Assembly: GCF_000685275.1 (NCBI RefSeq)
Contig: NZ_ARYK01000002.1
Location: forward strand, 248,001-312,000
Direction: 5' to 3'
DNA: 64,000 nt
Source: Hyphomonas johnsonii MHS-2
GTDB lineage: Bacteria; Pseudomonadota; Alphaproteobacteria; Caulobacterales; Hyphomonadaceae
The notes beneath the pieces were generated by a model. That model made no database searches, was not told where the DNA came from, and saw only the letters and a list, made by a program, of their open reading frames with translations. The stretch's first letter is position 1, and the number at the start of each line of letters is the position of its first letter. Shown piece by piece: positions 4,566-44,181 of the stretch. Both the position numbers and the translations under genes were made by a program.

Positions 4566-4665
4566 GCAAAGTCCTTGCTCGCGTGCAGGCGTACGCTCTG
4601 ACGATCCGGCCGCTCATCGATTGCATAGATTAGCTGAGACATAATCATCCTGTCGTTACGGACAA

Positions 4666-5292
4666 TTACTTATGATCTTCAAGGCCGATGCCAGCCTGAA
4701 ACGCCGTCTTCAGAGCCGCTGACAGGCTGTCGGCGCCAAGTTTCTCCATCAGATGCCCGCGATGGATTTCGACCGTCCGAGCGGAAATACTCAAGTCAGC
4801 CGCGATCGTCTTGTTTGTCATGCCCTCGACCAGCCGTTCAAGTACGTCGCGTTCGCGCGGTGTCAGAACGGCCAACAGCGCGCGCGCCTTTGTTTCGCGG
4901 GTACGCTGGGCTACGGTATCGTCCAGGCGGTCAAACGCGGCATTAATCGCTTCGAGCAGAACCTGCTTTTCGTAGGGCTTTTCTATAAAATCGATTGCAC
5001 CGGCCTTCATGGCATCGACCGCGACCGAAACGTCCCCATGTCCGGTGAGGACGACCACCGGCATATCGATGCCACGTTCACTTAGTGCGCCAAGAACGGC
5101 AATCCCGTCCAGAACCGGCATACGTACATCAAGCAGAATGCAGCCGGCCTGGGCCGGGTCCAGTTCATCCAGGAAATGCACACCGTCGCGGTATGTGCGC
5201 ACCGTGAAGCCAGCATGACGCAGCATGAAACTCGCCGAGTGGCGGATCGCTTCATCGTCGTCCACCAGGTGAATGTATCTTTGATCTCTCAA
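4666..5292 (-). CDS. fixJ: FixJ-type response regulator
   Basis: Transcription factor partner of the oxygen sensor encoded upstream. The 208-residue protein has an N-terminal receiver (DDDEA at 11-15, phospho-acceptor Asp55 in LLDVRMP, Thr83 in LTGHG, Lys105 in IEKPY) and a C-terminal LuxR-type helix-turn-helix (about 143-200, with TPRERDVLERLVEGMTNKTI). The reading frame begins at a TTG that overlaps the fixL stop (TTGA), with no ATG available before the receiver, so translation is probably coupled to fixL. By family knowledge, FixJ phosphate activates microaerobic genes; a FixJ-like site lies upstream of the adjacent ccoN. Confidence 0.92.
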   Translation of the reverse strand: MRDQRYIHLVDDDEAIRHSASFMLRHAGFTVRTYRDGVHFLDELDPAQAGCILLDVRMPVLDGIAVLGALSERGIDMPVVVLTGHGDVSVAVDAMKAGAIDFIEKPYEKQVLLEAINAAFDRLDDTVAQRTRETKARALLAVLTPRERDVLERLVEGMTNKTIAADLSISARTVEIHRGHLMEKLGADSLSAALKTAFQAGIGLEDHK

Positions 5293-15081: not shown

Positions 15082-15456
15082 ATGAAAGCCGTCATCAAGA
15101 CCTTCGCCGCTGCCTCCGCCGCATTGGCCATCCTTGCGGGTACCGCCGCAGCACAAGACTACAATAACTGGGGTGAAATTTCACCATGGGGTTCGACCAT
15201 GGTCGACGAGTGGGGCAATGAGCACTATGTCGATCCCTATGCCTATGACAGCCAGGTCGACATGTATGGCAACGTGATCAGCTCCTATAATGGTGAGCTT
15301 GACCCAAGCCTCGATTATTATGACCTGACCCCGGTTCAGCCCGGCTATGATTACTCAGGCGGCTACGGGTCAGGCGGGTCGACATCGAGCAGCGACCTTC
15401 CGTACTCGCAGCCCGCTGACTCGCATGAAGCCTTCATCAACTCGATCTACGAATAG
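15082..15456 (+). CDS. Small exported aromatic/acidic-rich protein (paralogue of 35824-36189)
   Basis: A 124-residue protein with a clear Sec signal peptide ending in AGTAAAQD (cleavage near residue 25), so it is exported. The mature part is very rich in Tyr, Asp, Gly and Ser and has no cysteine. Its core HYVDPYAYDSQVD, YGNV.SSY.GE.DPS and the C-terminal SHEAFINSIYE are nearly identical to the protein at 35824-36189. I do not recognise a family. ATG at 15082 follows AAGGGGAC. It lies just downstream of cbb3 operon 1 and has its own rho-independent terminator, and the paralogue lies next to cbb3 operon 2, so a link to respiration or the low-oxygen envelope is worth considering. Confidence 0.85.
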   Translation: MKAVIKTFAAASAALAILAGTAAAQDYNNWGEISPWGSTMVDEWGNEHYVDPYAYDSQVDMYGNVISSYNGELDPSLDYYDLTPVQPGYDYSGGYGSGGSTSSSDLPYSQPADSHEAFINSIYE

Positions 15457-19379: not shown

Positions 19380-19790
19380 CTACAAGCGCTGCGCAAACGC
19401 CTTGGCTGTTTCGTTATAAAGCCTTCCATCAGGGGTGATCTGCATGATGTTTTCGACAACTCGCGGTCGCTGGCCGCGCTGGGTTGGATTCACTCTGATC
19501 ATCAGCTTGAATCGACCATTGCCCAATGGAAGCACCTGGAACTGACCGGTCGACCCCTGGCCCTGGCGTGCCCCGGGCGCAAACGCCATGCTGATGAATG
19601 ACCCGTCAGGAAGGAATTCCGAGATCGTGGTGCCCTGCTGGGCAGCGAGCCGCCATTTGCCGACCAGGAAAGCCATTTCCTGGCTGACGCCGGGTTGGCC
19701 CTGATAGGCTGAAGACTGGGCAATCGCAGGCGTACCGACGAAGGCGACTGCACAGGCGAGCAGGACAGCAGATATGGATGATTTCAACAT
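19380..19790 (-). CDS. Exported protein with C-terminal PDGxLYNE motif
   Basis: A 136-residue protein with a Sec signal peptide (cleavage after GTPAIAQ, about residue 25). The mature domain looks like a small beta-rich domain: FLVGKWRLA, SEFLPDGSF, then ITPDGRLYNETAKAFAQRL at the end. The last motif recurs in the protein at 43641-44081 (MPDGNLYNESARAIAYRL), so the two are paralogues. Function unknown; a lipocalin-like fold is possible (W-R near the start) but unproven. It lies 117 bases before the sigma factor gene on the same strand. Confidence 0.78.
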   Translation of the reverse strand: MLKSSISAVLLACAVAFVGTPAIAQSSAYQGQPGVSQEMAFLVGKWRLAAQQGTTISEFLPDGSFISMAFAPGARQGQGSTGQFQVLPLGNGRFKLMIRVNPTQRGQRPRVVENIMQITPDGRLYNETAKAFAQRL

Positions 19791-35823: not shown

Positions 35824-36189
35824 CTATTCCCAGATGGAATTGATGAAGGACTGGTGCGAGTCGACCGGATTTTCGTATGGCACGTACGTCGAGCTTCCGC
35901 CGGAAGAGTAGTCGTAAGGGTTCGGCGAGATCGGCGAGAGATCGTACATACCGATGGAAGGGTCCATTTCGCCGCTGTAGCTGGAATATACGTTGCCGTA
36001 ATTGTCGACTTGGGAGTCGTAGGCGTATGGGTCGACATAGTGTGAGTCACCGTACTGGTCGTACATTTCCATACCCCAGGGGCTGATCGAGCCTTCGGCC
36101 CAGTATCCATAGTCCTGCGCGCTGGCAGCACCGGCAAAAGCCGAGAGGGCGACGATGACGGCGGCGGCTGTTTTCGTGAAGCTTTTCAT
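35824..36189 (-). CDS. Small exported aromatic/acidic-rich protein (paralogue of 15082-15456)
   Basis: A 121-residue exported protein, signal peptide to about GAASAQD (residue 25). Core ISPWG.EM.D..G.SHYVDPYAYDSQVD, YGNVYSSYSGEMDPS and tail DSHQSFINSIWE match the protein at 15082. No cysteine, no recognised family. It is encoded upstream of cbb3 operon 2 on the same strand. A perfect CRP-type site (36273-36288) is centred about 91 bases before the ATG, and a hairpin terminator follows, so it is a single gene under its own control. Confidence 0.86.
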   Translation of the reverse strand: MKSFTKTAAAVIVALSAFAGAASAQDYGYWAEGSISPWGMEMYDQYGDSHYVDPYAYDSQVDNYGNVYSSYSGEMDPSIGMYDLSPISPNPYDYSSGGSSTYVPYENPVDSHQSFINSIWE

Positions 36190-36272
36190 GGTTCAGGTCC
36201 TTGTCTGCATCTCCGAAGCGGTTGTTCGCCCCGGCTGATGAACATGTTTTGCCAGAGCCCCCCGAATGGCGA

Positions 36273-36288
36273 TGTGAGCCACTTCACA
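36273..36288. promoter_or_regulatory. CRP-type site upstream of 36189
   Basis: TGTGA-GCCACT-TCACA, an exact match to the TGTGA-N6-TCACA consensus. It is centred about 91 bases before the ATG of the small exported gene at 35824. It also lies 36 bases beyond the stop of the adenylate cyclase gene, which is on the same strand. Confidence 0.75.
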
Positions 36289-36323
36289 GGAGTCGAATAT
36301 TACAGCTCTTCCTGAATTCCTCA

Positions 36324-38306
36324 CTATTTGCGTGTCTCGACGACATCCCCACGAGCAAGCCCCGCTAAACGGTCCAGTGCCTGAAAATACGCCGATCCGG
36401 CTTGAGCATCCGAAAGCATGGTCTCAATCGTGGCGACCTTGTCGGGATCAGGCCCCAAAAGCTCTCCGAACAGGCTGGTGCATTGGTTAAGCTCAGATTC
36501 CGAAAGTGATGTGGAGAGTGTGACGGTCGTGACAGGCTCGTCGCGACCGGGCAGAAGCAGGCGGCCTGCAGGTAGAAACCCGTCCGGTTTGCCCGCGGCC
36601 TCAAAGAGTCCGGCCGTGGCCAGCAGGCTGGTGCCAAGCGTCTTGTTTGCCGCTTCAAGCCGGGACGCAATATTCGTTACATCTCCCATCGCGGTGTAAT
36701 GAAAGCGCCGCTGTGTGCCGAAATTACCAACCATGGCCTGCCCGCAATCCGCGCCCGCCCGTGTTACGCCAAGCATGATGCCATTGGCCTGGAACCTGAT
36801 GCTCATCTGGCGCCCGGCTTCAACGAGGTCCCTCGCGCAGTCGAGCGCGCGCATGGCGTGATCTGCTTGCCATGTCGGTGCGTTGAAGAGCGCAATGATG
36901 CTGTCGCCGACAAACTGGTCGATCATACCGCCGTGCCGGAGCACGACCTGGCCCAATTCGTCGAGGTATTCACGAATGACGTCGGCTCCCTTCTCCGGAT
37001 CAACGGATTCCATCAGTGTTGTGTAACCCTGCAGGTCTGTGACCACCACGGAGACGTCGCGCATTGCGCCGCCGAGTGATAGCATGGACGGATCATCGAG
37101 CAGGCGCTGAAGGACATCCGGAGACACATACCGGCCAAATCCGTCTGCTATCCGTCGACGCTCCTGGAACGCGATCAAGCCGCTGCGCGAAACAAACCCG
37201 CTCCCAATCAGGATGAGCCCCAATAAGGGCGCACTATCGGCCACGACAGCATTGCCCGCGCGCGCAACGCCGCAGGCGAGCAACAGAACCAGCGCGCCGG
37301 ACACCAACACCAAGGACGCGCGCACGATATCCGTCCGGGCCCATATAGCGATCCACAAGCTGGTGCACATCGCCACGATCCACAATGATACAACTATCCA
37401 GGCTGGCGCTGGACGGAGAGCATCACCAGCGATCGTCGTTGCAGCAATGTTGCCTTGCGCTTCGACGCCGTGCATCAAGCCGTGGGCCGATGCGTAATAA
37501 GGTACATTGATACCGTCCGACGTCGCTTTCGATGCGGATGGGCTAGCCTCAAGCGCGAGACCGATGAGGACGATCTTGTCGGTGAATGTGCCCGGTGGGA
37601 GCATGTCTGTGGCCGACAGCGCCTGATAGTAGGACACCTTGCTCAGACGGTGTTGCCCCCGCGCGAACCGGATGTATCGTTTGTTCTTGCCAGATGCAGG
37701 AGACGACGTCTCCCCTGCCAGATCAGCAGCTACAATGTAGGCGATACTGTCTGCAGAGTTTGGCAACCGCCGTAACCGGCCATCCGGATCAAGATCCACG
37801 CCGGCAATACCTACGCCTTTGGCTTCTTCGAGCAGACGTCCGGTCGGCAGGGCCAATGTTTCGATTTGGCCCTGCGGAGTCCGGGTCGTCGCGCGCTCGG
37901 CTGCAAGGTAGACATTCCCGGCAGTCCTCATCGCGTCGGCGAAATGGGCATCTGAGTCAGTCGACTGTTCGAAAACGATATCGAAGACAATGGCACGAGC
38001 ACCAAGCGAATGCAGCTGCCGGACGAGTTCAGCGTGAATGTCCCGGGACCAGGGCCACTGTTCGCCAACATCCTGAAAGGATGGCGCATCGATGGCGACA
38101 ATAACAAAATCGTCACGCGCGTGAGACGCCTCGAACAGACTTCCAACCGAATCCGCAAGCAGGCGATCTGCCCCCCTCAAAAGCCCCGCCGCGCCCATCA
38201 GGGTGACGGCAAGCCACAGAGCCACGACCCAGCCGGCGACCGATTTTCTGCGCGCGGACGTGTTCGCCCAAAAAGTGCGGAGTATTGACAAGCAGGGCCC
38301 CATCAT
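36324..38306 (-). CDS. CHASE2 domain class III adenylate cyclase
   Basis: A 660-residue membrane cyclase: N-terminal helix (about 22-46), an extracytoplasmic CHASE2 sensor (about 55-300: FVIVAIDAPSFQDVGEQWPWSR, VVFDIVF-type strand, FTDKIVLIGL), three helices (about 310-390) and a catalytic domain to the end. Catalytic residues seen: metal Asp in VVTDLQGYT and DQFVGD, purine Asp in YTAMGDVTNIASRLE, and transition-state Asn/Arg in the same motif. The usual Lys of KxxGD is Gln, a variant known in some mycobacterial-type cyclases, so substrate preference is less certain. Start is ATG 38306 or 38303. Divergent from the FecR-barrel gene and near a Crp gene. Confidence 0.9.
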   Translation of the reverse strand: MMGPCLSILRTFWANTSARRKSVAGWVVALWLAVTLMGAAGLLRGADRLLADSVGSLFEASHARDDFVIVAIDAPSFQDVGEQWPWSRDIHAELVRQLHSLGARAIVFDIVFEQSTDSDAHFADAMRTAGNVYLAAERATTRTPQGQIETLALPTGRLLEEAKGVGIAGVDLDPDGRLRRLPNSADSIAYIVAADLAGETSSPASGKNKRYIRFARGQHRLSKVSYYQALSATDMLPPGTFTDKIVLIGLALEASPSASKATSDGINVPYYASAHGLMHGVEAQGNIAATTIAGDALRPAPAWIVVSLWIVAMCTSLWIAIWARTDIVRASLVLVSGALVLLLACGVARAGNAVVADSAPLLGLILIGSGFVSRSGLIAFQERRRIADGFGRYVSPDVLQRLLDDPSMLSLGGAMRDVSVVVTDLQGYTTLMESVDPEKGADVIREYLDELGQVVLRHGGMIDQFVGDSIIALFNAPTWQADHAMRALDCARDLVEAGRQMSIRFQANGIMLGVTRAGADCGQAMVGNFGTQRRFHYTAMGDVTNIASRLEAANKTLGTSLLATAGLFEAAGKPDGFLPAGRLLLPGRDEPVTTVTLSTSLSESELNQCTSLFGELLGPDPDKVATIETMLSDAQAGSAYFQALDRLAGLARGDVVETRK

Positions 38307-38335
38307 TTTCGACTGGTTCGAATAGGGGACATTCA

Positions 38336-41300
38336 ATGATTAAACGTCAACTCTGGCAATGGCTGGTTCTTGCCTGCCTTTTACCCGCGGTGCAGGGCTC
38401 GGCAGCCATCGCTCAAGTCGTGTCTGACCGTCCGCAGGAGAGCATCGGTGAGATAATCGATACGAAGGGAGAAGAGGAGTTTCTCCCGACAGAGCTGACT
38501 GACTGGCGCAAGGCAACCGTAACGCAGGCCCTGATCAACGGCGACTTCCTTCGGACGGGTGAGTTTGGGGGACTGGGGATCTCGTTCAAGGATCGCACGC
38601 AAATGCGACTTCATGCGAACTCCAAACTTCAAATCTCCGAGGAGGGCACGGGCGGCTCAGCTCGCAAGTTCGTCTTGTCGGCCGGTCGGTTCTGGTCGCG
38701 CGCCAGCAAGCCGGACCGCCCACTGATTATCGAAACACCAACTGCAACAGCCGCTATCCGTGGAACCGACTGGTATATGGAAGTTCTCGGCGACGGCGCG
38801 TCGCGCCTGGTCGTGCTTGACGGCGAAGTGCGTTACTTCAACGAATTCGGAGAGATACGCGTCGGATCTGGCATTTCTGCTATCGCCCGCCCTGGAGAAG
38901 CCCCCGAGATAGAATTGGTTGTCAGTTCCCCTGACCGCCCGCGATGGGCGTTGTTACCCCGATCAGACTGGGCAATCTTCCTGCCTATTGACGCGGTTGC
39001 CGACGAAGCCGCCGGATCGGGCGAGCGCGCGGCATTTGAAGCCATCCAGAAAGGATCGATTCCGGACCTACGCGCTGCTCTTGCGGCCAACCCGGCCTCC
39101 GGTAGCAAGCACCACATGGTGGCAGCTGCAATCCTGAAGGTGGTGGAACGTGATCCTCAGGGTGCCCTCAACCTGCTTGATCAGGTGGAAAGCATCACAC
39201 CACTTCAACCGGTCAACCTGCAAGGGGCAGAACCCGGCCACTCAGGCCTGATCAAAGTGTCCGGCGAGGCACAGACGCAGCCCAGTGTCGACGGCCGGCA
39301 TTCGGAGGCCCTCGCGCGGTTGGTTCTGGCGCTGCGCGTCGGTGCGAATCTTGACCTGGCGCGGTTTGATGACGCCTTGAGGTTCCTGGCAGCCTACGAT
39401 CGGCGCTTCGGAAGCGATGTGTCGAGCAAGGCCTTGCGCGCTTACCTCGAAATATATGCTGGCCGCATCGAATCGGCGTCGATAATCAGTCAGGACCTGA
39501 CCCAGACAAACGATCACGATGTGCGCGTGGCGGTGCTTGCTTCACTGGTTGCAGTGATGAACGGCGATGATGCCGCGTTGAACATCGCGACGGCATCGGC
39601 TGTGGACATTGCCCCTGAAAATGCGACCGCATGGTACTGGCGCAGTCTGTACCTCGCGTCGGCGGGCGGCGTTGGCTTCGAGGAAGTGAGCGCGGCCCTG
39701 GACCGTGTCCTGGTACTGAACCCCGATGCTGTCGGCGCATGGACCGCATTGGGACAGCTGAGAGCATCGGCCGGAGACCGGACTGGCGCACTCGCCGCGT
39801 ACGACCGCGCGCTCGCGATCCAACCGTTGGAACCCTACGCACTGACTGGGAAGAGCTTCGCCTACATTGCCCAGGACAGGCTGGACCTTGCTGAAGCGGT
39901 ATTTGCCGCCCTGTCGGAAGGGGCGCGTCTTCATCCCGAGATCCAGTCGGCCATTACGGTGATCCGTCTGATGCAAAACCGAGCCGAAGAGGCCGCCATG
40001 GCCGCAGGGCGCATCATCTCGGCCAACCCGGCGCGCCCGGGCGCAACGGCGCTTGGTGCGATGGCGCATTGGCAGGCCGGACGACACGATCTCGGCGTCG
40101 AGATGATGAACAATGCAATCCGGCTCGATCCGAATGACGCCTTCAGTGCGCAGGCAGGCTCCGTGATGGCGCAGGATCAGTATCGTGCGGGCGATGCTAT
40201 CGCGCTGGCCCGCGCGGCGTTCGCAGCCGATGCCAGAAGCCGCGGCGCCGGCCTTGTCGACCTTCCGGCCAGCCAGAGTGGCCGTATCGATATCGGATCA
40301 GCCTTCCGGAACATGGGGCTGGATGCGCAAGGGGAACGATATTCAAGCCAGGTCGCCAACCAGTTCAATGCCAACACCGCCTTCGCCTATGCCGGTATCT
40401 ACCCCGATAGCCTGGCACGCCAGTCAAGCACCTCCACTGGTTTGCTGCTTGATCCGCTGTCGGTGACCTACCCGCTGCGGCACGCGCAATTCTATCGCAA
40501 GGAACGGCACGAACGAGCCATAGGCGTTTCCGCCTCTTACGGTGAAGCCGGTGCACAGGGCATTGAGTCCTCCGGTCAGGTTCAGGGCCTGACCCGCGTC
40601 GGAAATCACCCGCTGGCATATGCAGCATTCCTGAGCGTCAATGATTCCTCCGCTGCGCGGGACAATAACGAGGCGCAGTCTGGGCTACTATCGCTTCGTT
40701 TCGGCACTGTCAGGAACGGACGGGACGGGTTTGTCGGTCGGTTGACACTGGACGCAAGCGAACGCGGCTTGCCGGGTCAGTTTTCCACTCTCGATCCCGA
40801 CGACCGGGAGCAAAACATCAATACGGCGATCGATCTTGGCTATACGCGCATCAATGCGTGGAACGACCGCTGGATGTTCAGGGTGGCCTACGGGAACGGC
40901 GATCGCGACTATGAGAACCCAGGCGCTTTCGGCAACACCTTGTCCGACCTGGAACTGTCCCTGGCGGCATCATTCGGCGTGGACGCCGCGCAGGACTTTG
41001 CCAGCCGCGGCCTTTACGATACCGCATTTAGCATACCCAACGAGGCACTCGTGGCGGTAAATCCTCCACCCGCGCTGCCCATCACAGATCAGATCGGCGC
41101 AGGCCTGTTACCGCTGAGAGACGATGACGACCCGGTACGCAAGATCAAGTCTAACGCGGATCTTCTCTCGCTTCAGGTGCGCCGTCTGCTTTCCGTAAAT
41201 GGATCCGACGTCAGCTATGGCGTCGAATACGGCAGCATCGAAAACACGACTCGACGGATTGAAAACATATTCCAGATTTCGGGCGTCGGCGCGCTCGTCG

Positions 41301-42238
41301 ATTTCGACAATGCCGCACAGATTTCGATCTTCGACCTAGGAACCGCCGTTCCCGCGACAGAGCGCCAGGAAACGAAGTCTGAGATGTTGCAAGCTCACGT
41401 TTCCACCGTATGGCGCGCCGATGAGCACTGGCGCCTTGAAGCGGGCCTCTACCCGACGCTCCTGCGCTCGGATTTTCGTCTGCCTGATCTGGGCATTTCG
41501 GTCTCGTCCGAAGACCTGACTGTCGACCCGCGCCTGGGCATCGCATGGGCAAGCCAACAACAGCAAATAAGGCTGGTCCTGCAGCGCACACGCACCCCAT
41601 TCGGCGTCGACACGATTTCGCCTCTCGGGGCGCTTGGCCTTTTGCCGAAGCGCAATCAGGGAATCTTCGCCGAAGAGACCGATAGTGCAATCCTGCGCTT
41701 TGAGCGCGACGTGACCGACCAGGTCTTCGTCAGCGTCGGGGCGGAACACCAGAAGATGCGCAACGCGAGCGCATCAAGATCCGGCGAGCGCCTCGAACAA
41801 AGTGCTTTCTTCTCTGACAAGGCCAGGCTCACCGTGATTGACGGCACAGTGGAATGGAAGCTCGGCGACCGCACTGCGGCGTCATCAAGCCTGGTCCTGA
41901 GCGATGGGGAAATATCCGGCTCGGGCCCGTATGCGGGTAATGACTTGCCGCTCGTGCCGGACCATACAGCATCAGTGGCGTACACGTGGGTTGATCCGCG
42001 CTTTTTCCGTGCACAGATCGGTCTTGCGCACATTGGAAAGCGGTTTGCCGATGGGACCAACCTGATTGAGCTGGATAGCGCCACGGTCTTGACCGGCAAC
42101 TTCTCGAAGGAATCAAGAGACAAGACATGGCTGTTCACGCTTTCCGGCACGGCTGCGGCGTCCGACGACGACCCGTTCTTTCCCGGCAGGAAAGCGTCTG
42201 CCTATCAGGTGCGTGCTGGCTTCTCCCGCAGGTGGTGA
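38336..42238 (+). CDS. Exported FecR-domain/TPR/beta-barrel protein
   Basis: A 1300-residue exported protein. In order: signal peptide ending SAAIAQ (about 26), a FecR domain (about 60-150: ALINGDFLRTGEFGGLGISFKD, IIETPTATAAIRGTDWYMEV), a linker, many TPR-like repeats (about 330-640, e.g. NPDAVGAWTALGQLRASAGD, ALAIQPLEPYALTGKSFAYI), and a C-terminal region of about 600 residues with alternating strands ending in a terminal Trp (FSRRW), as in outer-membrane barrels. ATG 38336 follows AGGGGAC. Divergent from the CHASE2 cyclase; this gene pairing recurs in other bacteria, so the two likely function together, but how is unknown. Confidence 0.85.
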   Translation: MIKRQLWQWLVLACLLPAVQGSAAIAQVVSDRPQESIGEIIDTKGEEEFLPTELTDWRKATVTQALINGDFLRTGEFGGLGISFKDRTQMRLHANSKLQISEEGTGGSARKFVLSAGRFWSRASKPDRPLIIETPTATAAIRGTDWYMEVLGDGASRLVVLDGEVRYFNEFGEIRVGSGISAIARPGEAPEIELVVSSPDRPRWALLPRSDWAIFLPIDAVADEAAGSGERAAFEAIQKGSIPDLRAALAANPASGSKHHMVAAAILKVVERDPQGALNLLDQVESITPLQPVNLQGAEPGHSGLIKVSGEAQTQPSVDGRHSEALARLVLALRVGANLDLARFDDALRFLAAYDRRFGSDVSSKALRAYLEIYAGRIESASIISQDLTQTNDHDVRVAVLASLVAVMNGDDAALNIATASAVDIAPENATAWYWRSLYLASAGGVGFEEVSAALDRVLVLNPDAVGAWTALGQLRASAGDRTGALAAYDRALAIQPLEPYALTGKSFAYIAQDRLDLAEAVFAALSEGARLHPEIQSAITVIRLMQNRAEEAAMAAGRIISANPARPGATALGAMAHWQAGRHDLGVEMMNNAIRLDPNDAFSAQAGSVMAQDQYRAGDAIALARAAFAADARSRGAGLVDLPASQSGRIDIGSAFRNMGLDAQGERYSSQVANQFNANTAFAYAGIYPDSLARQSSTSTGLLLDPLSVTYPLRHAQFYRKERHERAIGVSASYGEAGAQGIESSGQVQGLTRVGNHPLAYAAFLSVNDSSAARDNNEAQSGLLSLRFGTVRNGRDGFVGRLTLDASERGLPGQFSTLDPDDREQNINTAIDLGYTRINAWNDRWMFRVAYGNGDRDYENPGAFGNTLSDLELSLAASFGVDAAQDFASRGLYDTAFSIPNEALVAVNPPPALPITDQIGAGLLPLRDDDDPVRKIKSNADLLSLQVRRLLSVNGSDVSYGVEYGSIENTTRRIENIFQISGVGALVDFDNAAQISIFDLGTAVPATERQETKSEMLQAHVSTVWRADEHWRLEAGLYPTLLRSDFRLPDLGISVSSEDLTVDPRLGIAWASQQQQIRLVLQRTRTPFGVDTISPLGALGLLPKRNQGIFAEETDSAILRFERDVTDQVFVSVGAEHQKMRNASASRSGERLEQSAFFSDKARLTVIDGTVEWKLGDRTAASSSLVLSDGEISGSGPYAGNDLPLVPDHTASVAYTWVDPRFFRAQIGLAHIGKRFADGTNLIELDSATVLTGNFSKESRDKTWLFTLSGTAAASDDDPFFPGRKASAYQVRAGFSRRW

Positions 42239-42272
42239 CCCCGGGATTCAGGCCATGTGATCGCCAAGTGAC

Positions 42273-42980
42273 CTAGCGTTCAATATCGACATCGTCAGCA
42301 AGCTCATTGATCGTCTCAACGTCCATGATCACGATCCGGCCTTCTTCCTTGGCCAGTACGCCTGCGCGTTCCCAGTTTGCAACCTGCTTGGACACGCTCT
42401 CCCGACTGGCCGCGATACGCTTGGCCAGTTCACCTTGTGTATAGCGGGATGCGAGCGCTATCGAGCCATCTTCCCGGTCTTCGCTTCGCTCCGCGAGGGT
42501 CAGCAACAAGCGGGCCAATCTCGGACCAAGCTCCAGGAACGAAACACTCTCGACCAGACGATTTGTCTTGCGCACGATCCGAACGAGTTCACCCAGCATC
42601 GCAATGGCTATTTTGGGTTGTTGCTGCAACAAATTGAGAAAGGCCATTCGCTGGAGCACGAACAGTTCACCCGCTTCGACCATCGCTGCGTCAGCAGAGC
42701 GTGGCTCCCCGTCAATCAGCGAGAACTCGCCGAAAATGTGCCCGCGTTCCATCGCATCAAGCGCAATTTCCTTCCCTTCCCGCGTCACCCGCGTCAGCAG
42801 AACGCGGCCGGAAAGAACCGCCATCATGGCATCGCCTTCATCGCCAACAGAAAACAGGACTTCCCCGCGGCCGGCACGCCGAACCCGCCCTCGCGAAACC
42901 AGTTCGTCGAGCGCTTCAGCATCAAGGCCCGAAAACATGCGAGACGCCTGCAAGAGATCTCGAATGGATTGGTCGCTCAT
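42273..42980 (-). CDS. Crp/Fnr family regulator, cAMP-type
   Basis: A 235-residue regulator: cyclic-nucleotide domain about 10-125, dimer helix, winged helix-turn-helix about 165-220. The phosphate-binding cassette FGEFSLIDGEPRSADA keeps the Glu, Arg and Ser that bind cAMP in CRP, and no Fnr cysteines are present. Recognition region TQGELAKRIAASRESVSKQVANWERAG. It converges with the FecR-barrel gene and lies within 6 kb of a CHASE2 adenylate cyclase, while three CRP-type sites lie nearby. It is the best candidate for reading those sites. Confidence 0.88.
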   Translation of the reverse strand: MSDQSIRDLLQASRMFSGLDAEALDELVSRGRVRRAGRGEVLFSVGDEGDAMMAVLSGRVLLTRVTREGKEIALDAMERGHIFGEFSLIDGEPRSADAAMVEAGELFVLQRMAFLNLLQQQPKIAIAMLGELVRIVRKTNRLVESVSFLELGPRLARLLLTLAERSEDREDGSIALASRYTQGELAKRIAASRESVSKQVANWERAGVLAKEEGRIVIMDVETINELADDVDIER

Positions 42981-43047
42981 GCAGGAATGCCTCCGTGAAG
43001 GGCAGACTATCCTCAGAGGGCATCACAAGGTCAACATGTGAGTTCGC

Positions 43048-43070
43048 CCCGGCCACCTCTCAGGGCCGGG
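43048..43070 (-). terminator. Hairpin after small exported gene (weak)
   Basis: CCCGGCC (43048-43054) pairs with GGCCGGG (43064-43070), 34 bases beyond the stop of the gene at 43104. There is no T tract, so it may be only a hairpin. Confidence 0.35.
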
Positions 43071-43103
43071 ACGCAGGGCATAACATGATACGAAATTCGC
43101 TCG

Positions 43104-43448
43104 TCAAAAATTCATCAACTCCATGAAAACGCGGTAGACATCCGCCGCTTCGCTTTCGGCAGGATCGGCATAGGTGTCTCCGCCCAGCGGTCGCACTTCG
43201 ATACATTCATAAGCGCCATACCAGGAGCAGTAGATGTCATCGTAATCCCAGTATCCGGGATCGCTGACAAAGTACGGGTCCCGGTTGCAATCTTCCATCG
43301 GGTACGGGTCACTTGGATAGGAATTTTCAATGCCCCACAGATCATCCCAGATCCACGGATCGGGAATCCCTCGGATATCAGCTGACGCGGTGCTGGCCAG
43401 GCAGGTGAATATTGTCGCTGCGAGAATGAAGATCTTGCCGGTGTTCAT
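43104..43448 (-). CDS. Small exported acidic cysteine-containing protein
   Basis: A 114-residue protein with a signal peptide (FILAATIFTCLASTASAD, cleavage about 24). The mature part is rich in Asp, Tyr, Trp and Pro with four cysteines (DCNRD, YCSW, ECIE and one near the signal peptide). Its WDDLWGI, YWDYDD and C-terminal aromatic helix (VYRVFMELMNF) give a composition like the paired proteins at 15082 and 35824, but the similarity is weak. A perfect CRP-type site is centred 95 bases before the ATG. No family recognised. Confidence 0.72.
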   Translation of the reverse strand: MNTGKIFILAATIFTCLASTASADIRGIPDPWIWDDLWGIENSYPSDPYPMEDCNRDPYFVSDPGYWDYDDIYCSWYGAYECIEVRPLGGDTYADPAESEAADVYRVFMELMNF

Positions 43449-43535
43449 TTCCAGGTTCCTTGCTGGTTGGATGGCCGCGCAGACGGGATGCCAGACGACC
43501 CATGCCCCTTATTGCGCGCCGCACGTGCTCAAGGA

Positions 43536-43551
43536 TGTGAGCAGGCTCACA
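43536..43551. promoter_or_regulatory. CRP-type site upstream of 43448
   Basis: TGTGA-GCAGGC-TCACA, an exact TGTGA-N6-TCACA palindrome, centred about 95 bases before the ATG of the small exported gene at 43104. Confidence 0.75.
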
Positions 43552-43640
43552 CCGATGTCGAAAAAGCAGACAATATCCCTTCTGAAGACGAGCGAGCCGC
43601 ACCCCCAAGGGCACGGCTCGTCAAACGGTTCTGGATCGGG

Positions 43641-44081
43641 CTAGCGGCGACGCGTGTCGCTGAACGGGGTCCCGTCCGGGCGCAGGCGATAGGCGATGGC
43701 ACGAGCGCTCTCATTATAGAGATTTCCGTCCGGCATGATCCGAAGGGTTTCGGTGCTTGTCTGGCGGTAACCGTCAATGTTTGAACGAACCGACAGCGCG
43801 ATACGGCCTTGCCCAGCAGAGCGGACTTCGTACCTGCACTTGTAGCTCACAGGGTTGTTGCGGGCCATCTGGGCCATTCCAGTGCACGTACCGTCAGCGT
43901 TGAACCAGGACATGTTTGTGCCTTGCGGGGTTTGAATTCCCCAGCTGCTTCCAGCCAGCACTGCCTGCGGTTCGAGGTCTATCGATTGAGCTCTGGCCAT
44001 CTGGCCGGAAAAGAAAAAAATGGATGCAGCCAGAAGCGCAAGAACGTTGCTGACCATTCTGCGGGAGATGATGTGTGACAT
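43641..44081 (-). CDS. Exported protein with PDGxLYNE motif (paralogue of 19380-19790)
   Basis: A 146-residue exported protein: signal peptide about 1-30 (VLALLAASIFFFSGQMARAQS). Mature domain with GSSWGIQTPQGTNMSWFNADGTC, two cysteines and the closing IMPDGNLYNESARAIAYRL motif found in the protein at 19380. Function unknown. ATG at 44081 (alternative 44057). A near-consensus CRP site is centred about 92 bases upstream, at the same distance as in the two neighbouring small exported genes. Confidence 0.75.
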   Translation of the reverse strand: MSHIISRRMVSNVLALLAASIFFFSGQMARAQSIDLEPQAVLAGSSWGIQTPQGTNMSWFNADGTCTGMAQMARNNPVSYKCRYEVRSAGQGRIALSVRSNIDGYRQTSTETLRIMPDGNLYNESARAIAYRLRPDGTPFSDTRRR

Positions 44082-44165
44082 GATGGGCGTCCTGTGTTCG
44101 TGTTGGAGCCGCGTGTCTTTTCCTGCGGCGATGAGGACAACCTGACCGATGCTGTGTTGCGCCGC

Positions 44166-44181
44166 AGTGAACTGGCTCACA
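44166..44181. promoter_or_regulatory. CRP-type site upstream of 44081
   Basis: AGTGA-ACTGGC-TCACA, one mismatch from TGTGA-N6-TCACA, centred about 92 bases before the ATG at 44081. It also lies in the promoter of the divergent LLM oxidoreductase gene. Confidence 0.6.

Follow-up and report, generated by a model that had tools for sequence, protein, structure and literature searches.

A stretch of 64,000 nucleotides from Hyphomonas johnsonii MHS-2 (contig NZ_ARYK01000002.1, positions 248,001 to 312,000; hereafter the window, in which position 1 is the first letter) contains, within about 8.4 kb, genes for a CHASE2 nucleotide cyclase, a FecR-TPR protein and a regulator of the Crp type, together with three small genes, g1, g2 and g3, that each have a predicted Crp box upstream and a predicted exported product. 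We conclude that this is probably a circuit in which class II promoters of small exported proteins are activated by Crp under the control of a cyclase that senses the envelope. The predicted Crp-box regulon extends to two loci of the H. johnsonii genome, is partly conserved in a second genus and has a counterpart in Parvularculaceae, where boxes precede membrane peptides of 28-29 residues.

Rare boxes at a near-constant distance from small exported genes

The sequence-only reading of the window had placed three 16-mers at 36273, 43536 and 44166, at 91, 95 and 92 bases before the ATG codons of three genes for exported proteins. All three are present, and the box centres lie 91.5, 95.5 and 92.5 bases before the A of the ATG, the last of which values presumes that g3 starts at 44081 (a second in-frame ATG lies 24 bases downstream). 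The cyclase and the Crp protein that it described between the boxes are also borne out, with the domain pairs CHASE2 plus Guanylate_cyc and cNMP_binding plus HTH_Crp_2, respectively; the FecR-TPR protein is an additional component that it did not mention. Export of g1, g2 and g3 was judged by eye, from an N-terminus that resembles a signal peptide. The features are as follows.

35824 to 36189, minus strand: g1, predicted exported protein of 121 amino acids (aa), C-terminal end DSHQSFINSIWE, without a Pfam or NCBIfam family above cut-off
36273 to 36288, minus strand: predicted Crp box of g1, TGTGAGCCACTTCACA on the plus strand, centre 91.5 bp before the ATG
36324 to 38306, minus strand: CHASE2 class III nucleotide cyclase, ATG at 38306, TTG at 38336 also possible
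38336 to 42238, plus strand: FecR-TPR protein of about 1300 aa, C-terminal ~650 residues of unassigned fold, candidate envelope partner of the cyclase
42273 to 42980, minus strand: Crp, a cNMP_binding plus HTH_Crp_2 regulator, sole close match in the genome
43104 to 43448, minus strand: g2, predicted exported protein of 114 aa, without a family
43536 to 43551, minus strand: predicted Crp box of g2, TGTGAGCCTGCTCACA in gene sense, centre 95.5 bp before the ATG
43641 to 44081, minus strand: g3, predicted exported protein of 146 aa, mostly beta strands in a mid-confidence model
44166 to 44181, minus strand: predicted Crp box of g3, TGTGAGCCAGTTCACT in gene sense, centre 92.5 bp before the ATG

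The boxes are GTGA..TCAC palindromes that read either TGTGAN6TCACA or AGTGAN6TCACA. The former, which we term perfect, occurs twice in the window against 0.09 expected (at least two in 1 of 100 shuffles), and the strict pattern WGTGAN6TCACW occurs three times against 0.16 expected, a number reached in 0 of 100 shuffles. At two or fewer mismatches there is no excess (27 in the window vs 25.2 expected), and therefore only strict matches are meaningful. Across the whole genome (3,618,770 bases) the perfect pattern is found in two places, both of them in the window, compared with one for the reversed-pattern control; the W pattern without mismatch is found in four, three of them in the window. When one mismatch is allowed, the W pattern gives 87 places vs 79 for the control, and because these counts are at chance level, one-mismatch sites were not used as evidence by themselves.

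The genome scan for boxes near other exported genes, which the sequence-only reading had proposed, yielded one further strict box, at position 76563 of contig C3; its 16-mer is identical to that of the g3 box, and it lies 83.5 bases before h1 (L001:9654-10157), a protein of 167 aa that is exported by prediction. Each of the four strict boxes in the genome lies 83.5-95.5 bases ahead of a small exported gene, and none precedes a catabolic gene; a single random site would fit likewise with a probability of about 0.0017 (from 9 small genes called in 83 kb whose product has a hydrophobic N-terminus), a rough figure in that three of those nine genes are box targets and the gene caller missed g3 and h1. 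A one-mismatch box (C3:77260) follows 700 bases past the h1 box, 89.5 bases before h2 (L001:10357-10770; 137 aa, exported by prediction), the C-terminus of which reads HQALIDSIWE vs HQSFINSIWE in g1. Among 13 one-mismatch rows checked by a rule that required a Shine-Dalgarno sequence or a long open reading frame, the h2 site fits. One other, C1:782222, lies 74.5 bp before an exported-looking protein of 151 aa and has no good -10 or Shine-Dalgarno sequence, and at 60-120 bp from the remaining sites we saw no gene for a small exported protein. For the one-mismatch site C2:246746 (L002) a BLAST search gave no matches. What had been described as a local cyclic AMP (cAMP) regulon of secreted proteins can be retained as a predicted Crp-box regulon of exported proteins; with h1 and h2 on a second contig, it is not only local.

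A C-terminal end of the type H[QE]xxI[ND][SA]IxE is common to several exported proteins that are otherwise largely different, and might act as a sorting or interaction signal. It is found in the proteins encoded at these positions.

Window: 15082-15456 and 35824-36189
L001: 10357-10770 and 10850-11227
L188: 9909-10262
L189: 9854-10219

The cyclase, the FecR-TPR protein and Crp

The cyclase (searched as 36324-38312) matches CHASE2 (PF05226) at 126.4 bits and Guanylate_cyc (PF00211) at 37.3 bits. Its metal-binding Asp pair (D426 and D470) and its transition-state Asn (N547) and Arg (R551) are invariant in an alignment with relatives. For the FecR-TPR gene (searched as 38339-42238), a single-sequence structure model of the C-terminal 645 residues has a mean predicted local distance difference test (pLDDT) score of 28.6 and is uninformative; this region of ~650 residues ends in Trp and might form a barrel. 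The g3 model, built from 2 sequences, has a pLDDT of 65.1 with beta strands predominating; against the Protein Data Bank (PDB) it gave no match at E ≤ 0.001, and several of its weak best matches are lipocalin- or avidin-like barrels.

Crp matches PF00027 at 71.6 bits and PF13545 at 50.3 bits. It contains the phosphate cassette of cNMP-binding proteins (GE....RS), in the form GEFSLIDGEPRSADA, and TN in the C-helix. A search of its own genome returned 348.6 bits for Crp itself and 37.6 and 34.8 bits for the next two. Its best sequence match in the PDB is 7pza (‘putative cAMP-binding protein - catabolite gene activator’), with Crp/Fnr entries next; we take 7pza to be Clr of Sinorhizobium meliloti, and the entries after it to be actinobacterial, presumably GlxR and the CRP of Mycobacterium tuberculosis. 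Matches to Crp at E ≤ 1e-20 are found in 5 of 60 relatives, including 1 of 36 congeners, and the locus therefore looks accessory in its genus.

A shared promoter layout downstream of the boxes

Another line of evidence comes from the sequence between box and gene, which we compared in 26 promoters (5 from H. johnsonii and 21 from Parvularculaceae). These were chosen for a small open reading frame in range (60-135 bp searched), and the narrow distances outside H. johnsonii are therefore partly selected. We dropped L013:5126, a perfect box with no clear open reading frame and a terminator-like hairpin downstream, and five W-type boxes that do not precede a small gene in the manner of the others (L039:2448, L015:9083 (= L037), L085:8752, L097:12584 and L099:10026). 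At +29.5 to +34.5 from the box centre there is a hexamer whose second base is A in 26 of 26 promoters; it is TATCTT-like in Parvularculaceae, and reads CAAAAC, CAATAA, CAGGTT, TATGTT or TAGGGT in H. johnsonii. The base at +41.5 is A in 19 promoters, G in 6 and T in 1, and lies mostly inside TCATC. A box at -41.5 is the geometry of class II CRP promoters. The predicted starts of h1 and h2 are L001:9612 and L001:10309, respectively, and for the window the following elements are predicted.

36246 to 36251, minus strand: -10 of g1, CAAAAC at -12 to -7, predicted +1 at 36239; CAAAAC and TTCATC stand at the same place in genome G393 (see below)
36209 to 36239, minus strand: 5'-end RNA hairpin of the g1 leader, z score -2.81
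44139 to 44144, minus strand: -10 of g3, CAGGTT, predicted +1 at 44132
44108 to 44129, minus strand: 5'-end RNA hairpin of the g3 leader, z score -2.32

A matrix built from the 21 Parvularculaceae promoters only was slid over the five H. johnsonii promoters (58 offsets). Offset 0, the class II position, is the best of 58 for g1 (8.4), g3 (8.3) and h1 (4.1), and is tied with +6 for h2 (-0.3); the score summed over all five promoters was reached in 0 of 20000 shuffles. All three training groups of the matrix come from one family, and the test therefore spans no more than two families. When the 28 bases that begin at the predicted start were folded as RNA, they gave a mean z score of -2.05, with 24 of 29 leaders below -1, compared with 0.57 and -0.13 for segments 14 bases upstream and downstream; this set comprised the 26 promoters and three of G393, was scored against mononucleotide shuffles, and includes paralogues that are not independent. 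The z scores in H. johnsonii are -2.81 (g1), +1.61 (g2), -2.32 (g3), -0.90 (h1) and -3.46 (h2). Four of the five promoters fit the layout, h1 and h2 with one weaker mark each, and g2 does not fit.

Judged by the distance from box to ATG, a class I arrangement would also be permitted, in which the box is at about -61.5 and the start 22-34 bases before the ATG; in S. meliloti, Clr-activated promoters have box-to-start distances of mostly -42 to -76 (PMC10127613). The cross-family matrix and the RNA hairpin, on the other hand, both indicate a start at +41.5 from the box centre, and we regard class I as decidedly improbable. The shared architecture is better stated as class II, with the box at a predicted -41.5 and g2 as a weak member, which the marks downstream of the boxes support.

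Conservation in a second genus

The g1 family (E ≤ 1e-5) is found in 3 of 398 genomes of the order: H. johnsonii itself, G393, which belongs to a different genus of its family, and G056, which belongs to a different family. The G393 Crp is 58.6% identical over 232 residues and has the best Crp score in the Hyphomonas family after that of H. johnsonii, such that the two g1-bearing genomes of this family are also the two with the best Crp scores. Both g1 homologues of G393 carry perfect boxes, TGTGAGCCGGCTCACA and TGTGACGCGGCTCACA, with CAAAAC and TTCATC downstream of each in precisely the positions that they occupy in the g1 promoter, and a further perfect box faces the opposite way, toward another small exported gene. 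Distances from box to start, the starts being judged by reading, are 92.5, 108.5 and 87.5. The class II offset ranks first of 58 in all three promoters; because the matrix here included the H. johnsonii promoters, the two g1 cases are not independent. We also observed, at L189:8666-10219 of G393, that two perfect boxes separate the second g1 homologue from two small exported genes that diverge from it. In G056, homologues of g1 and h1 adjoin, without a strict box.

These data bear on whether the neighbouring Crp might be a bystander to boxes that are read by another Crp/Fnr regulator. For such a regulator speak the congeners, which have a few perfect boxes although 35 of 36 lack a Crp match at E ≤ 1e-20, and two weak Crp-profile matches elsewhere in the H. 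johnsonii genome. In addition, 17 of 22 congeners contain the perfect palindrome TGTGATTTC[GT]ATCACA, which is not found in the H. johnsonii genome and is probably the site of another Crp/Fnr regulator; boxes of this type in the congeners mean that a different regulator may read related sites. Bearing in mind, however, that the H. johnsonii genome has only one close Crp, that boxes and the g1 family co-occur with a Crp orthologue in G393, and that boxes cluster near crp in Parvularculaceae, we consider it improbable that Crp is a bystander, and take Crp as the predicted reader of the boxes.

Crp loci of Parvularculaceae and a family of 28-29-residue peptides

We sampled 42 loci with 29 distinct Crp genes, picked by Crp score, several of them on short contigs. 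Eighteen of the 29 Crp genes lie near homologues of the cyclase (tblastn above 200 bits) and of the FecR protein, 13 have a perfect box in the stretch, and 11 have both a box and a cyclase. A profile check confined to these genomes found CHASE2 in G000 (H. johnsonii), G019, G040, G044 and G056 and not in G057. Ten of the loci together have 17 perfect boxes at 79.5-92.5 bases before genes for peptides of 28-29 residues, mostly with a clear Shine-Dalgarno sequence. The peptides are of the type MGVIEIILIGFIG-NAALGVSSLFTVSR and look like a membrane helix; each locus has 1-3 copies near crp, most of them in the interval from cyclase to crp, and the copies are tandem paralogues. Among the 28-residue copies (15 of 17) the pairwise ratio of nonsynonymous to synonymous differences (pN/pS) is 0.32, as expected for translated peptides. 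By profile search at E < 1e-5, the family occurs in 21 of 398 genomes, all of them Parvularculaceae, and a composite of the family had no match in Pfam or NCBIfam. The peptide loci are listed by position.

L092: 10584, 10905 and 11202
L038: 9295 and 9605
L041: 9106 and 9430
Seven further loci

Other boxes precede other small proteins. In G056, two boxes lie 85.5 and 83.5 bases before two 56-residue paralogues (two of the paralogous genes at L013:4168-4338, 4595-4765 and 4921 onward), between genes that we take to be atpD- and atpC-like. A third perfect box in G056 (L013:5126-5480) is followed some 300 bases on by a terminator-like hairpin, with no clear open reading frame; by eye this is a candidate small RNA. 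In G107, boxes lie 81.5 and 78.5 bases before membrane peptides of 60 and 61 residues, the latter of which starts with GTG.

Eight Parvularculaceae genomes, chosen because their Crp locus has boxes, contain 50 perfect boxes vs 2 reversed-pattern sites; 16 are at the Crp locus and 34 elsewhere. A small open reading frame with a hydrophobic N-terminus and a Shine-Dalgarno sequence, at 55-125 bases, follows 13 of these 34 dispersed boxes vs 44 of 1360 control positions, under a target rule that was set after looking at the sites and with controls from the same loci; among the targets are a Pmp3 family protein and an EF-hand protein whose similarity to lanmodulin is below threshold. At 11 of the 34 the class II offset is among the top three of 58 (about 3.4 expected).

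It might be supposed that equal spacing is no more than the relic of a recent duplication of one promoter-gene unit, given that g1, h2 and h3 have a similar C-terminal end and the micropeptide genes are tandem paralogues. Against this, g1, g2 and g3 have no mutual tblastn match at E ≤ 1e-3, their leaders differ by eye outside the box, the -10 and TCATC, and the same layout of box, -10, start and hairpin recurs in Parvularculaceae before unrelated small membrane or exported proteins (for dispersed boxes, partly so). A duplication relic is highly improbable. The shared promoter architecture that the sequence-only reading had argued from equal spacing is supported by the h1/h2 locus on another contig, by the G393 g1 boxes in the company of a Crp orthologue, and by the cyclase/FecR/Crp loci of Parvularculaceae.

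Observations that weigh against the proposed circuit

Several of our observations count against a dedicated circuit. Perfect boxes also occur in congeners (0-6 in each of 22), and therefore it is placement and context, not number, that carry the signal in the H. johnsonii genome. The g2 promoter scores -20.2 at the class II position and is best at +3, and its hairpin z score is positive. The h2 box deviates from the pattern at one position, and boxes with one mismatch are no commoner genome-wide than chance allows; we kept the h2 box because it lies beside h1 and is accompanied by a -10-like hexamer and a hairpin. Paralogues of g1 (15082-15456, plus strand, 60-64% identical) and of g3 (19380-19790, minus strand, 36-41% identical) within the window have no Crp box at the usual distance, and nor does the g1 homologue of G056. 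In the 16 kb examined around the G393 crp there is no match to the cyclase. Among the 29 sampled Crp genes, 7 of the 18 that lie near a cyclase have no perfect box in the stretch, and of the dispersed boxes 21 of 34 have no small exported-type target by the automatic rule and 23 of 34 do not have the class II offset in the top three. The remaining dispersed sites show neither mark, and therefore the wider regulon is mixed, or the rules miss targets.

The cyclase presents a further difficulty: where three relatives and PDB 6fht have the substrate Lys (IDK or VDK), it has Gln (IDQFVGD). We have therefore filed it as a CHASE2 nucleotide cyclase, with cAMP as its presumed product. It may be that the enzyme makes cyclic GMP (cGMP) or a mixture, or that Crp is fed by another cyclase; Clr, the best PDB match of Crp, is described as a receptor of both cAMP and cGMP (PMC10127613). 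The other catalytic residues (Asp 426, Asp 470, Asn 547 and Arg 551) are, however, kept, and the proximity of cyclase and Crp recurs across loci. We consider a source or ligand other than cAMP from this cyclase rather unlikely, and continue with cAMP-type signalling from the locus cyclase as the preferred reading.

Comparison with known systems

In S. meliloti, the CHASE2 cyclases CyaD1, CyaD2 and CyaK signal through Clr, with sensing via NsrA, a barrel of the outer membrane, and Clr has targets with a predicted non-cytoplasmic location, namely smc02178 (periplasmic), smc02177 (with a FecR domain) and smb20495 (with TPR) (PMC5498481, PMC13001267). The NsrA-CyaD-Clr system and the Hyphomonas locus thus both combine nucleotide cyclases of the CHASE2 type with a cAMP-type regulator and with targets outside the cytoplasm. 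The two differ in that the Clr box is HGTYHCNNNNGRWACA, compared with TGTGAN6TCACA in Hyphomonas; by inspection, the window boxes do not have the GTNNC...GNNAC core of GTNNCNNNNGNNAC. They differ also in their targets, which in Hyphomonas are different small proteins, and in that the FecR-TPR protein, the cyclase, Crp and three targets there share one stretch. The Hyphomonas circuit would work like the Clr system and yet is not a member of it, because Clr reads HGTYHCNNNNGRWACA; we see it as a distinct variant of Sinorhizobium CHASE2-Clr-like signalling.

Class II promoters of Escherichia coli CRP, as well as GlxR and M. tuberculosis CRP, combine a TGTGAN6TCACA box, a position near -41.5 and an RE..K/R recognition helix. 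The Hyphomonas circuit resembles them in box type, in predicted position and in recognition helix; unlike E. coli CRP, its putative targets are small exported proteins, and most of the leaders open with a predicted hairpin. The Vibrio VcdRP RNA is reportedly under CRP control. Its transcript encodes a 29-residue peptide, VcdP (PMC8672173). By description only, VcdP is like the Parvularculaceae peptides in size, and unlike them in that the latter are membrane-helix-like and present in 1-3 copies near cyclase and crp. In the literature searched, which covered few subscription papers, we found no description of a CHASE2/FecR/Crp circuit.

Proposed circuit and its implications

We hypothesize that the CHASE2 domain responds to an envelope signal, which may reach it through the FecR-TPR protein, and thereby activates the cyclase; the cyclic-nucleotide product, most likely cAMP, would load the neighbouring Crp. 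Crp would then bind boxes of the type TGTGAGC-NNNN-TCACA centred at -41.5 and recruit RNA polymerase to a weak, YANNTT-like -10. The transcripts would begin with the A of TCATC or close to it, have a hairpin at their 5' end and encode g1, g2, g3, h1 and h2, the small exported products of which may act in or outside the envelope.

A broader proposal, toward which we lean less than halfway, is that the Crp box at -41.5, the TATCTT-like -10, the start at TCATC and the 5'-end hairpin form a portable promoter-leader cassette of the envelope-sensing CHASE2/FecR/Crp module, which would have been joined, separately in each lineage, to unrelated small proteins of the exported or membrane type, the 28-29-residue membrane peptides among them. 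The wiring would be conserved, and the outputs exchanged.

The locus would represent a compact and dedicated cyclic-nucleotide circuit that runs from a likely sensor to its output, with exact predictions of box, transcription start and products. It ties small exported protein families that have no database family, as well as a family of 28-29-residue peptides short enough that gene callers may miss them, to a predicted regulator and sensor, and the function of these small proteins therefore becomes directly testable.

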